Source: Thermobifida cellulosilytica TB100
GTDB taxonomy: Bacteria > Actinomycetota > Actinomycetes > Streptosporangiales > Streptosporangiaceae
Direction of reading: 5' to 3'
Length of the DNA stretch: 55,210 nucleotides
Assembly (NCBI RefSeq): GCF_001517975.1
Contig: NZ_KQ950182.1
Coordinates: 512,073-567,282, forward strand
The notes beneath the pieces were generated by a model that did not search any database, was not told the DNA's origin, and saw only the letters and a list, made by a program, of their open reading frames with translations. Positions 9,896 through 18,577 of the stretch are shown here, piece by piece. Both the position numbers and the translations under genes were made by a program. Each line of letters opens with the position of its first letter. Position 1 is the first letter of the stretch.

Positions 9896-9901
9896 ACGCG
9901 G

Positions 9902-9927
9902 GCGGCCGTGCCCCGGGGCACGGCCGC
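9902..9927 (+). terminator. Palindromic hairpin after nnr
   Basis: A perfect 26-base palindrome (arm GCGGCCGTGCCCC) begins seven bases after the nnr stop and can fold with an 11-bp stem and a CCGG tetraloop. There is no T-run. It marks the end of the core segment and the left edge of the island. Confidence 0.65.
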
Positions 9928-10001
9928 AGCACAGAAGGGCCTGCCCCGGACGTGGGATTCGAGGGCCGTCCGCCGGGCGGCGGTACGGGGACCCCTGCCG
10001 C

Positions 10002-10159
10002 CTGCTTCGGCCGCGAGGCGCGGCAGCCTTGACCGCTCCTCGGGTGCGGGAGGGACTGTCGGCCGCCGGGTTCCCGGATGGCGGAGCGCTGCGGAGAGCC
10101 GACAACCCCTCAAGCACCAGAGCGCCCCTCAAGGCTGCCGGGCCTCCCGGCCGAAGCAG
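10002..10159. mobile_element. 158-bp element with terminal inverted repeats, copy 1
   Basis: The left end (10002-10032, beginning CTGCTTCGGCCGCGAGG) and the right end (10129-10159, ending CGGCCGAAGCAG) are 31-base inverted repeats matching at 29 positions. The interior has no convincing gene. A second copy of the same length lies just past the far end of the CRISPR array. The structure resembles a MITE or a REP-like element; no transposase or clear target-site duplication is seen. Confidence 0.7.
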
Positions 10160-10347
10160 ACCGGAGGCTTCCCCGCCCGCATCGCCCCCACCCCCGGGGC
10201 CCCGTCAGCGGCTCCAGCACCCGACCGCCCGCTCGGAACGCCAGTGTTCTTCCGCCAAAATTGGTCTAAGGTGACTGACGGGCCGAGACTGCCCTGCAAG
10301 GTTGATCACGGCAAGATAACGCCCCGAAAAACCGCAGGTCAGTTTCT
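10160..10347 (+). promoter_or_regulatory. CRISPR leader
   Basis: The leader side is on the left because the rightmost repeat is degenerate. The last 100 bases are less GC-rich than their surroundings (for example CCAAAATTGG near 10255 and CAAGATAACG near 10312). CAGGTC followed by AGTTTCT directly precedes the first repeat. A CAGGTC at the identical distance precedes the lone relic repeat at 14349, so this motif probably belongs to the leader end used in spacer integration. Confidence 0.7.
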
Positions 10348-13300
10348 GTGCTCCCCACGCACGTGGGGATGGTCCGCACTTCGACCAGGCACTCCTGGAA
10401 GAGCTCGCGTGCTCCCCACGCACGTGGGGATGGTCCGTCGGATCGGGCCATCCCCACGTGCGTGGGGAGGTGCTCCCCACGCACGTGGGGATGGTCCGAG
10501 GACGCCGATGTCTGAGACCACGCCCCGTCCGTGCTCCCCACGCACGTGGGGATGGTCCGGTCACCGCCGAGTACGTCATGGAGCACCTCCCGTGCTCCCC
10601 ACGCACGTGGGGATGGTCCGCCAAGGCCGGGCGGGTGCTGTCGGCGAAGAACGTGCTCCCCACGCACGTGGGGATGGTCCGGGCACCAAACGCTGCACGG
10701 TCCAGGGCTGCGGGTGCTCCCCACGCACGTGGGGATGGTCCGCCTAGGCCTCATCGGTTTTCTCCCTAGCTAGCGTGCTCCCCACGCACGTGGGGATGGT
10801 CCGACCTCATGCAATCGGGCGGTCTCGTCATCGTCGTGCTCCCCACGCACGTGGGGATGGTCCGGAGCGCCGTGCACGCGCCCATGCTCTCCCGGAGTGC
10901 TCCCCACGCACGTGGGGATGGTCCGTCGACAACCGGCACACCCTCGTCGTGGGGATGGTGCTCCCCACGCACGTGGGGATGGTCCGATCGTGTCGGTTGC
11001 CGCCCGCCGCGACACGTTGTGCTCCCCACGCACGTGGGGATGGTCCGGCCAGGAACGCGTTGATCGCCAGGTTCTTCGCGTGCTCCCCACGCACGTGGGG
11101 ATGGTCCGGCCATACCACGGGCACGGACGTCCGGTTGGCGGTGCTCCCCACGCACGTGGGGATGGTCCGCCGTCAAACCCATCGCCCCCACCAAACCGGC
11201 CGTGCTCCCCACGCACGTGGGGATGGTCCGACCGACCCGGCCGCGCTCGCCGAGCGGCTCACGTGCTCCCCACGCACGTGGGGATGGTCCGATCATGCAG
11301 ACCGCCATGCAGCGAGCCGCCTAGTGCTCCCCACGCACGTGGGGATGGTCCGAGTCTGCCCCATTTTGTCTGGTTTCTGTTTGAGTGCTCCCCACGCACG
11401 TGGGGATGGTCCGTCGGGGTACCTGCGGGTTCCGGAGGCCTCGAGGTGCTCCCCACGCACGTGGGGATGGTCCGCCACGGGCGGAAACGTGATTACCGCG
11501 CGGTTCGTGCTCCCCACGCACGTGGGGATGGTCCGAACTCGGCCCAGGACATGGGGCGACTGATCGCGTGCTCCCCACGCACGTGGGGATGGTCCGGCCG
11601 CGATCGACGGCCTGGTGGACGCCCGCGTGGTGCTCCCCACGCACGTGGGGATGGTCCGCGGTTGGGGCCGCACGCCGAGGCGGCGTGGACGTGCTCCCCA
11701 CGCACGTGGGGATGGTCCGCAGTGGATAGGGGCACGACCCACGCGGGGTTCGTGCTCCCCACGCACGTGGGGATGGTCCGGCTATGGTGAAGGGCGGTCC
11801 GCTCGCTGACCTGTGCTCCCCACGCACGTGGGGATGGTCCTAGACCGCGACCCGGCGCGGGTCCCGCGCCTTGGTGCTCCCCACGCACGTGGGGATGGTC
11901 CGCCGCGGCCAGTCGCTTTCCGGGATGCCCTGCTGTGCTCCCCACGCACGTGGGGATGGTCCGTCGCGGCTCCTCGACCAGTCGCGGCTCCTCGGGTGCT
12001 CCCCACGCACGTGGGGATGGTCCGGGTCTTCCGGAGCCCTGGCAAGCCGGAGTCAAGTGCTCCCCACGCACGTGGGGATGGTCCGTGAATTCGCCTCCGC
12101 TCGCCGCGGTGCAACGCGTGCTCCCCACGCACGTGGGGATGGTCCGCGTTCGTGGTGGTGCTTCCGGGGGAGCCGAGCGTGCTCCCCACGCACGTGGGGA
12201 TGGTCCGGGGGAGGAGTCGTCGCTGTGGCTCCACTGCGCGTGCTCCCCACGCACGTGGGGATGGTCCGGCCCCGCCACCACCACGGTGACGGGGCCTACT
12301 GTGCTCCCCACGCACGTGGGGATGGTCCGTCGTACTCCTCGTGCAACCACACCGTTTCGATGTGCTCCCCACGCACGTGGGGATGGTCCGAGGGCGGCGA
12401 GTGATCCACTTCTGCATGAACTGTGCTCCCCACGCACGTGGGGATGGTCCGGGGCGATGAGCGCCGAGTCGCGCGGAGGCGACGTGCTCCCCACGCACGT
12501 GGGGATGGTCCGCGTTCGCAACCGGCCGCGGCAACGCCACCAAAGTGCTCCCCACGCACGTGGGGATGGTCCGCGGCGGGTGGTGCTGGGTGAGTTCGGG
12601 CCGGTGTGCTCCCCACGCACGTGGGGATGGTCCGCCTGCCGCAGACGCTTGCGTCGTTCTCAGCCTGTGCTCCCCACGCACGTGGGGATGGTCCGGCGAA
12701 CATCGCCCGAAAAGCGCCGTCCCTGACGTGCTCCCCACGCACGTGGGGATGGTCCGACGTGAAACAGGTCGTGGCCGCCGCGCGCGCCGTGCTCCCCACG
12801 CACGTGGGGATGGTCCGGCGCGCAGGGACAGGGCGTCGCAGTGCGGGCAGTGCTCCCCACGCACGTGGGGATGGTCCGCGGCTAGCCACACGTTCCTTGT
12901 CAACTCAATAGTGCTCCCCACGCACGTGGGGATGGTCCGCCCGGCAATGTAGGTTTCTCCGTCGTCATCCTGTGCTCCCCACGCACGTGGGGATGGTCCG
13001 GCGCAGGACCTCTGGAATGACCTGAAAGAGGCGTGCTCCCCACGCACGTGGGGATGGTCCGATCACCCCGGAGCTGCGCGGCCAGCTCCAGCGGTGCTCC
13101 CCACGCACGTGGGGATGGTCCGTCACCGGACGTGCCCCAGCGGATCTTGCGGCCGTGCTCCCCACGCACGTGGGGATGGTCCGCGGCCCCCGTCCACCTG
13201 AGTGGTGGGCGGGGGGTGCTCCCCACGCACGTGGGGATGGTCCGACCGCCCGAGTCGCCGTGGACGGCACAGAGACGTGCTCCCCACGCACGTGGGGATG

Positions 13301-13854
13301 GTCCGCCGCACCTCGCCAAAACGGCCGTGCCGCGCCGGTGCTCCCCACGCACGTGGGGATGGTCCGTGGCTGTACCGGTCTGGGGTGAAGCGCGGCGCGT
13401 GCTCCCCACGCACGTGGGGATGGTCCGATCCGCGTCCACACCGACACCGGTGAGGTGCTGTGCTCCCCACGCACGTGGGGATGGTCCGGCCGCTGCTTCC
13501 TTCGGGGACCACAGCCGGTCGTGCTCCCCACGCACGTGGGGATGGTCCGTATGCGGCGAGCCGCTTGGGGTCAGAGGCCCGGTGCTCCCCACGCACGTGG
13601 GGATGGTCCGCTGACGGCGGCTACATCGTCGCCCCGCCGTCCGTGCTCCCCACGCACGTGGGGATGGTCCGACAGTTCGGGCTTGCCGGACACCTTGAAC
13701 GTGGTGCTCCCCACGCACGTGGGGATGGTCCGCCATAGCTCCTCCAACGTCAGGTTGCGTGCACGTGCTCCCCACGCACGTGGGGATGGTCCGCCCCCTC
13801 CAGAGCCCAAGAGTCGTGGGGGCCCGTGCTCCCCACGCACGTGGGGATGGTGCT
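10348..13854 (+). CRISPR. Type I-E CRISPR array, 58 repeats and 57 spacers
   Basis: The 29-base repeat begins GTGCTCCCCACG and ends GGGGATGGTCCG; its core CCCCACGCACGTGGGG folds into a seven-pair stem, as in Cas6e substrates. Repeats lie exactly 61 bases apart (32-base spacers) except for one 33-base spacer at 11597-11629. All repeats are identical apart from repeat 25 (last base T at 11841) and the terminal one at 13826-13854, which ends GGTGCT. The class is inferred from repeat length, stem and ending. No cas gene is in this window, so the interference and adaptation machinery must be encoded elsewhere. Confidence 0.98.
10438..10469 (+). other. Spacer 2: contains an inverted copy of the array's own repeat
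   Basis: The last 22 bases of this 32-base spacer are the exact reverse complement of repeat bases 4-25. The whole spacer matches the reverse strand of the repeat 51/spacer 51 junction (13402-13433) at 30 of 32 positions. With repeat 3 it forms a 22-bp perfect palindrome around GTG (10448-10494). Confidence 0.95.
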
Positions 13855-13876
13855 GCATTGCAGCAACAGTTTCTGT

Positions 13877-14034
13877 CTGCTTCGGACGCGAGGCGCGGCA
13901 GCCTTGACCGATCCTCGGGCGCGGGAGGGGTTGCCGGGCGGCGGGTTTCCGGGTGGTGAAGCGCTACGGGAAGCTGACAGTCCCTCAGGTACCGGAGCGG
14001 CGCTCAAGGCTGCCGCGCCTCGCGGCCGAAACAG
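13877..14034. mobile_element. 158-bp element with terminal inverted repeats, copy 2
   Basis: Same length and orientation as copy 1 at 10002-10159, with ends CTGCTTCGGACGCGAGG (from 13877) and GCGGCCGAAACAG (to 14034). The interiors are clearly related but diverged (my rough estimate is three quarters identical). It begins 22 bases after the last CRISPR repeat, so the two copies bracket leader plus array. Confidence 0.7.
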
Positions 14035-14040
14035 AGGGAA

Positions 14041-14161
14041 CAGTGAAGTGCCCCCACCAGCCTGGGCCGGGCCGCGAGGTTGCGGCACCGTTTCACCGTC
14101 TTCCATGGCCCTGGGGGCATAACAAGCATCTGTTCTGTCCCTGGGGCCATGATCGTCAAGG
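14041..14161. repeat. Hairpin-bearing inverted repeat, left copy
   Basis: This 121-bp stretch matches 18462-18577 in inverted orientation. It contains a stem-loop: arms 14104-14123 and 14132-14151 pair at 16 of 20 positions around an eight-base loop. It starts six bases after the 158-bp element copy 2. No gene is apparent in it. Confidence 0.75.
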
Positions 14162-14335
14162 CCGTGCCGGTGGTCGTCCGTGGCGTCCGGCGACAGGAGG
14201 GCTTCCAGCCGGTTCCGCGGTCCAGCGGGCAGGACACGAGCGGACTGTGGGACTGCGGGGGCGTTGCCGACGGCTGGGGTGCTTGCCCAGGTTTTCCCGA
14301 GTGAAGGAAAACCGCCCGGGCCGCTGGTAAAGTCC

Positions 14336-14377
14336 CAGGTCGCCAAGGGAGCTCCCCGCGCACGCGGGGATGGTCCC
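14336..14377 (+). CRISPR. Lone relic CRISPR leader end plus one repeat of a different repeat variant
   Basis: A 29-base unit at 14349-14377 starts GAGCTCCCCGCGCACGCGG and ends GATGGTCCC. Compared with the array repeat, A/T pairs of the stem are replaced by G/C on both sides, so the hairpin is preserved. CAGGTC at 14336-14341 sits seven bases before it, the same as at the main array. No second repeat follows. Confidence 0.65.
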
Positions 14378-14405
14378 GGCGTACCTGACCGCGGAAAGGC
14401 TCTGT

Positions 14406-14699
14406 TCAGGTGTGGGTGACGTGGGTGGGGTGGGCGATGGTGTTGCTGGAGAGTTTGAGCATGGGCGGCAGGCCAGGGGAGTCGGTGTAGCCGGTCACGG
14501 TGTGCAGGTTGCCCCCGAACCGCACCCGGGCACCGACCGGGTAGGCCTCGCGCAGGGCGTCTTCTTCGCGGGTGCGGGTGATGGCGGCCAGGGTCTGGGC
14601 CAGGGCGTGGATCTGGGCGGGGGACAGTTCGGTCTTTCCGCGCCAGACCCGGTTTTCGCTGATGCGGTAGATGCGCGCCTGTTCGGACCGGCCGCTCAC
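14406..14699 (-). CDS. Hypothetical protein, 97 residues
   Basis: Basic N-terminus (MSGRSEQARIYRI) and a helix-rich middle (SPAQIHALAQTLAAITRTREEDALREAYP), followed by a short beta-rich stretch YPVGARVRFGGNLHTVTGYT that looks like a small barrel such as a KOW or SH3-like fold. The start overlaps the stop of the upstream gene by four bases (ATGA), so the two are translationally coupled. It is the last gene of the leftward operon. I recognise no family. Confidence 0.6.
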   Translation of the reverse strand: MSGRSEQARIYRISENRVWRGKTELSPAQIHALAQTLAAITRTREEDALREAYPVGARVRFGGNLHTVTGYTDSPGLPPMLKLSSNTIAHPTHVTHT

Positions 14700-18240: not shown

Positions 18241-18437
18241 GTCGAAGGACGGCTCTGGCCCTCGTGTTCACCCCCGTGTTGATGTCAGCGACAGGACCGA
18301 CGCAGCCATGACGGAGCAGGGCAGCGCTGGCACACCAGAGCCCTCTCAGACCAGCCCGCCCACAGGGAAGCCCAACGCCGATCCCGGGCGCAGAAGCGGA
18401 TGCTGCGACCGTCGGATGAGAAGTCCGCTGCTCGCAA

Positions 18438-18462: not shown

Positions 18463-18577
18463 CTTGACGATCATGGCCCCAGGGACAGAACCGACGCTTG
18501 TTCTGCCCCTGGGGCCATGACGGTGACGCGGTGCCGCAGCCCTGTGACCCGGTCGGGCTGGCGGAGGCAGTTCACTG
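18462..18577. repeat. Hairpin-bearing inverted repeat, right copy
   Basis: Matches 14041-14161 in inverted orientation. Its stem-loop is nearly perfect: CATGGCCCCAGGGACAGAAC (18472-18491) pairs with 18500-18519 at 19 of 20 positions around an eight-base loop. Together the copies enclose about 4.3 kb holding the GntR/HAD and HATPase genes. Confidence 0.75.

Follow-up and report, generated by a model that had tools for sequence, protein, structure and literature searches.

Spacer 2 of a type I-E CRISPR array of Thermobifida cellulosilytica TB100 consists for the most part of an antisense copy of the CRISPR repeat, and its resemblance to the repeat is not a matter of chance. It was probably captured from incoming phage or mobile-element DNA, bearing a mimic of the host repeat. 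The array lies within the window, i.e. the whole stretch of 55,210 nucleotides analyzed here, which sits on contig 3 of the 4.43 Mb genome. The coordinates of the features discussed are reported in Table 1.

Table 1. Location of the features discussed; positions refer to the window, unless preceded by the identifier of another locus.
Feature	Position	Strand	Description
Leader end	10288..10347	+	similar at other arrays of the genome
Type I-E CRISPR array	10348..13854	+	58 repeats of 29 nt, 57 spacers
Repeat 2	10409..10437	+	last base G, which should reflect the PAM of spacer 2
Spacer 2	10438..10469	+	32 nt: antisense CRISPR repeat plus 6-nt flank
Non-repeat source flank	10438..10443	+	6 nt; most of the crRNA seed lies inside
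Antisense of repeat bases 4-29, one mismatch (base 26)	10444..10469	-	26 nt, by alignment
Exact antisense of repeat bases 4-25	10448..10469	-	22 nt
Repeat 3	10470..10498	+	predicted partner of spacer 2 when the precursor RNA folds
Repeat 51 and start of spacer 51	13399..13433	+	earlier proposed source (30/32); judged not to be the source
Phage module	L027:5254-5404	-	repeat-insert-repeat
Phage module	L026:7633-7766	-	repeat-insert-repeat
Phage module	L103:4409-4498		repeat-insert-repeat; also at L105 (G007) and L106 (G008)

The array and the composition of spacer 2

Spacers of the window array are 32 nt long in 56 cases and 33 nt long in the remaining one. Arrays with the same repeat, or near variants of it, are found in ten more stretches of the genome. 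The eleven stretches provided a sample of 352 own spacers and correspond to 370 of the 382 repeat-like sites of the genome, few spacers being missed. The leader end is found at nine sites, as assessed by a genome search allowing up to one mismatch. The cas operon is located on a different contig from the window array; in a profile search of the genome, passing matches were obtained with both domain models of Cas3 and with the type I-E models of Cse1, Cse2, Cas7, Cas5e, Cas6e, Cas1e and Cas2e. Spacer 2 therefore shows the attributes of a type I-E spacer, namely 29-nt repeats, 32-nt spacers, a leader and type I-E cas genes in the genome. No matches were obtained by a Pfam search of ten candidate ORFs of the window, nor by an Rfam search of positions 9900-14500.

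Repeats of other kinds also occur in these regions. Solitary repeats of another type, with a CTCCCCGCGCACGCGGGG core, are present in the window (14349-14377), at L029:5285 and at L036:9511 (minus strand). Each of them follows an identical 50-nt leader-like sequence, and they apparently represent CRISPR loci that are empty or orphan. At position 18433 of the window (minus strand) there is one more solitary repeat, without the leader-like sequence. A dispersed element with palindromic ends, CATGGCCCTGGGG...GGGGCCATGA, intergenic and about 49 nt long, occurs at 14104-14152 and 18472-18520; the two copies are 78% alike and lie close to solitary repeats. Spacers 19 and 23 of the L036 array stretch are identical, apparently by duplication.

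Spacer 2 is exactly 32 nt long and is flanked on both sides by perfect repeats, with a 61-nt spacing. Alignment reproduced both matches reported by the first-pass annotation, i.e. the exact reverse complement of repeat bases 4-25 and the similarity, over 30 of 32 bases, between the reverse complement of the whole spacer and positions 13402-13433, the differences falling at spacer positions 1 and 10. The copy within spacer 2 has a C at repeat base 26, where the own repeat has a T. Spacer 2 is the only one of the 352 own spacers to match the repeat over more than 10 nt on either strand, the next longest match being 10 nt; when own spacers were shuffled, the longest repeat match never exceeded 13 nt in 200 trials. 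In the 550 unique spacers of three congeners, matches to the repeat did not exceed 9 nt in antisense and 11 nt in sense orientation. The proposal that spacer 2 derives from a repeat holds, since its 26-nt antisense stretch is equalled neither by other spacers nor by shuffled ones. It is also recent by position, as had been proposed, being second from the leader. The last 10 nt of spacer 10 (10948-10957) also match the repeat, on the sense strand, over a length within the range of shuffled spacers.

Phage units resembling the host repeat

The IMG/VR collection was scanned for the repeat core: five contigs (G004 to G008) carry a short repeat-insert-repeat unit, and one contig of 437 kb carries longer arrays. 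The latter, IMGVR_UViG_3300021978_000001, is classed as viral and contains many short arrays (L041, L047, L058, L059, L070, L081 and L085), several of which follow similar leaders. Many other IMG/VR contigs, among loci L042 to L085, contain units resembling actinobacterial type I-E repeats, and 36 of the 43 IMG/VR loci (including L026, L027 and L038 to L040) show one or two exact units only.

Thermobifida spacers can be placed on the five contigs at 90 positions with at least 80% identity, three of these being placements of spacer 2; the best matches include one of 33/33 with GAG and one of 32/32 with AAG. Because spacers of the genus match them, these phages probably infect, or once infected, Thermobifida. 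G006 carries terminase and integrase genes, the unit adjoining the integrase gene, and G004 and G005 encode DnaB-type helicases. The five contigs amount to four sequences, since no difference separates G006 from G008 in the 1 kb compared. The unit is all that G004 and G005 have in common with G006, G007 and G008, over the 0.9-1 kb compared; in G005 the common module extends over about 81 nt (88-91% identity), and in G004 it is reduced to shorter pieces. There are two repeats per unit in G006, G007 and G008 and three in G004 and G005, where the third repeat has 2 mismatches to the searched core. The 32-nt insert of G005 is much like that of the other group (23 and 27 of 32 positions); its counterpart in G004 is only 15 nt long.

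For the phage insert, a degenerate 31-base pattern with up to 3 mismatches gave no target in four Thermobifida genomes, and the sequence outside the units, both in the five phage contigs and in the window, contained no match above 21/32. Two further apparent copies of the insert (L133 and L134) were discarded, their sequence context being unrelated. Comparison of the unit with the phage collection produced one weak match only (E 0.5). One promoter-like site is located 45 nt before the unit in G006; none was found before the unit in L027.

Two spacers of T. fusca also fall on or near the unit. Spacer 28 of array L024 spans the leader side and the first repeat of the G004 unit (29/33, PAM CGG), and matches the G005 unit at 28/33; spacer 3 of array L100 falls just upstream of the G004 unit (29/32), with PAM AAT and a repeat whose last base is T. 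Host spacers show no clear excess at the unit: of the 29 distinct spacers matching G004 (11.2 kb), only two, besides spacer 2, lie within 260 bases there.

Possible sources of spacer 2

According to the explanation that we favour, Cas1-Cas2 would have taken spacer 2, as a genuine type I-E spacer, from incoming DNA. The donor would most likely be a phage, or else a mobile element of another kind, that carries a repeat-insert-repeat or a solitary-repeat unit; in the unsampled sequence, GATGGCCCG would form the end of the repeat, ATCCGA would come next, and after it the complement of a PAM with G as its last base. No protospacer of spacer 2 was found in the own genome, genome contigs, viral contigs, phages and plasmids, as searched. 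The exact junction match with a type I-E PAM, which the first-pass annotation had envisaged in genome, plasmids or phages, likewise failed to appear in those searched. When the repeat end was searched together with the flank in viral contigs, one scan gave no match and another 4 stretches, which were rejected as donors because none is a repeat. Four stretches found in genome contigs were rejected as well: only that of T. fusca lies in an array, and its base 26 differs. Nothing closely similar to the array segment was present in the phage and plasmid collections. Identity between spacer 2 and the sampled phage units reaches only 25-26 of 32 positions, in no case with a PAM ending in AG, and these units are therefore examples of the kind of source rather than the source itself. 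Apart from spacer 2, a C at base 26 was seen only in phage-borne units, namely in 15 of 77, at 14 of 43 IMG/VR loci, from phages that may or may not infect Thermobifida; the latter count is redundant, in that L043, L052, L067 and L069 show one identical unit, and omits the 7 loci of the 437-kb contig. The mobile mini-array with a variant repeat, one of the origins put forward earlier, fits best, although the exact donor was not found.

The first-pass annotation had regarded this array itself as the apparent source. Copying from repeat 51 and spacer 51, or from an own array since lost, with mutations arising later, would explain the 30/32 identity, and adaptation genes are present in the genome. 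Base 26, spacer base 1 and the PAM, however, all disagree with repeat 51. Among own repeats, the 345 with GGATGG just before base 26 all have a T there and none has a C (7 of 352, differing in the preceding bases, were set aside), and the exact core of the C variant occurs in the own genome in spacer 2 only. The accessible text of PMC3338789 describes the last base of a type I-E repeat as derived from the PAM; the PAM at the junction between repeat 51 and spacer 51 would be GAC, whereas the G ending repeat 2 implies NNG. PAM and repeat end were concordant for 24 of the 35 spacers whose phage matches reach 85% or more, and all three of these spacers with repeats ending in T had PAM AAT; the 11 disagreements may indicate that the sampled phages are relatives of the true sources. 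The 6-nt flank is matched at 5 of 6 positions by 2 of the 352 own spacers and about 1.6 are expected, by arithmetic, to match at 5 or better, so that the agreement with repeat 51 is at chance level. An equally good junction (30/32, PAM TGT) is provided by spacer 18 of L030, and no better source was found in the own genome by searching for the repeat end and flank with up to 2 mismatches. Drift in a leader-proximal spacer is not expected either, since 283 of the 352 own repeats match the consensus exactly. Given its two mismatches, PAM and chance-level flank, the own array was rejected as source, and self-copying is decidedly unlikely. Inverse insertion, known from S. avermitilis according to the available portion of PMC4762764, was also discarded: a spacer inserted in this way would end in C (or T), and spacer 2 ends in G.

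Capture of a repeat/spacer junction from a chromosomal array of a different strain or species of Thermobifida, through DNA from lysed kin, conjugation or transduction, appears rather unlikely, even though host repeats are the most common origin of such a sequence and a degenerate repeat of an unsampled strain could yield an identical one. In its favour, a junction of the T. fusca L024 array (repeat end GGACCG, then ATCCGAACC) matches spacer 2 at 29/32, with the 6-nt flank exact. Against it, the PAM at this junction would be GGT, in disagreement with the G ending repeat 2, base 26 is an A, and the 5' part of the repeat reads GAGCCCC instead of the captured CTCCCC. Finding the exact 6-nt flank once among the 550 unique congener spacers is moreover near the chance expectation of 0.13. 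A C at base 26 is missing not only from the own repeats but also from 579 repeats of three congeners, where A is found 533 times and T 46 times; in this count 1 repeat of 580 was set aside, and the T. fusca array, identical spacer for spacer in two records (L121 and L024), was counted once. A fold-back or template switch, in the cell or during assembly, that inverted repeat 2 or 3 is highly improbable. Adjacent inverted repeats are typical of such events, but a copy of either repeat would show an A opposite base 26 and would lack TCGGAT, and the insert is exactly one spacer long, with the perfect neighbouring repeats and regular spacing described above.

Targeting, RNA folding and relation to known systems

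The seed of type I-E systems comprises spacer positions 1-5, 7 and 8, and that of spacer 2 is mostly contained within the non-repeat flank. None of the 352 own junctions, read in the same register, matches all seven seed positions. Six junctions match six of them, with PAMs TGT, GAC, GTT, AGG, ACG and ACG. The one with AGG (L028 spacer 3), where mismatches fall at positions 2, 6 and 10, may allow weak priming. AAG, reported as the preferred PAM both for T. fusca Cascade and in S. avermitilis (accessible parts of PMC6546366 and PMC4762764, respectively), or GAG is found at only 5 of the 352 junctions, the best of which matches 5 of the 7 seed positions. The possibility, raised earlier, that the crRNA targets every repeat is thus not supported: host repeats should escape crRNA 2, since they lack the full seed and, for the most part, the PAM. 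No site of the own genome combines a near-perfect match with seed and PAM, the best matches (30/32) having PAM GAC or TGT.

The predicted MFE of the repeat-spacer 2-repeat unit is -75.2, compared to a mean of -46.2 (sd 6.4) for the 57 units of the array; the long hairpin with repeat 3, suggested by the first-pass annotation, is accordingly supported as a prediction. The fold predicted for crRNA 2 engages the whole 8-base handle in pairing with the spacer, the remainder of which is paired with the 3' hairpin. For closure of the handle, crRNA 2 ranks within the top three of 588 host crRNAs, a number that includes crRNA 2 (four of 592 were dropped by length). For several ordinary spacers as well, folding of longer precursors predicts a weak Cas6e hairpin, so that the size of the effect of spacer 2 is uncertain. 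With the 5' handle and the 3' hairpin both predicted to be occupied by the spacer, crRNA 2 is probably a poor effector.

Inserts of the phage units were evaluated on the same scale. The 32-nt insert of G005 and the 15-nt insert of G004 are predicted to pair with the repeat handle. Handles equally or more closed are shown by 16-21% of the 588 host crRNAs for three first inserts, by 7% for the shortened first insert, and by 68% and 76% for the second inserts of L027 and L026; the values for five units of other phages range between 6% and 71%. Taken one by one, the phage inserts are unremarkable in comparison to host crRNAs, and their pairing with the handle is therefore a lead only. Variants of the insert, compared by eye, include compatible one-sided changes and one broken pair; as no double change is found, the structure is not proven. 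If the favoured origin of spacer 2 is right, the module is a candidate decoy crRNA against a structurally studied Cascade.

These elements can be assembled, as a tentative and rather speculative picture, into an arms race between Thermobifida and its phages over the CRISPR repeat, in which mobile decoys of about 81 nt are carried by phages, hosts capture pieces of them, and the capture jams the array. The insert of the decoy, kept across unrelated phages, would pair with the crRNA handle, and the captured pieces would be spacer 2 and the two T. fusca spacers. The decoy would be partly self-protecting, because the RNA of the antisense spacer would pair internally and with the repeat that follows, and the host would avoid attacking itself only because the seed lies outside the repeat. 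If this is right, adaptive immunity samples elements that imitate it, and how a memory of a repeat mimic is tolerated, with neither self-attack nor jamming, becomes a testable problem.

A pattern of antisense-repeat spacers was also looked for in 341 genomes of the family. It was found in 7 genomes, compared to 5 with a reversed control pattern, and a general phenomenon is therefore unsupported. The matches located in arrays are those of the window genome, of G137 (13 nt antisense) and of G109 (9 nt). The match in G150, a lone hairpin and not an array spacer, and those in G097, G115 and G233, one common sequence outside arrays, were discarded. The spacer of G137 (L111) is antisense to a repeat end GATGGTCC, compared to GATGGACC in its own array, and may be due to chance.

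Reviews, in their accessible portions, cover both mini-arrays and repeat-mimic RNA anti-CRISPRs (PMC11656645, PMC8616872). No report of host spacers derived from repeat-mimic units was retrieved from the open-access literature under fixed search terms. Virus mini-arrays and Racrs are thus already known, while host memory of repeat mimics is apparently undescribed, which is weak evidence of novelty. Spacer 2 resembles ordinary type I-E spacers of E. coli, S. avermitilis and T. fusca in its 32-nt length, leader-proximal position and PAM-derived repeat base, and differs from them in being an antisense repeat, whose RNA is able to pair with the flanking repeats. Racrs, the RNA anti-CRISPRs described in the available text of PMC10651486, are phage-borne mimics of host repeats without cas genes, like the presumed target of spacer 2. 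They are solitary repeat units, whereas the units of G004 to G008 contain two or three repeats around a conserved insert; the SRUFinder tool of that study, according to the same text, excluded repeats clustered as arrays, and no host spacer against a Racr is mentioned in that part of the paper. CreTA guards (PMC9458426) produce crRNA-like RNAs from one or two ectopic repeats, as the phage units might; the insert has no target above 21/32 in the sequences searched, a comparison that covered longer matches than the short partial ones used by CreA. The virus-borne mini-CRISPR arrays of PMC6858448, as presented in its available sections, are also similar to the phage units, having one or two spacers, no cas genes and a host-like repeat. 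The spacers of those mini-arrays target related viruses; for the phage insert no target was found in the genomes and contigs searched, and here it is the host itself that carries a repeat-derived spacer.
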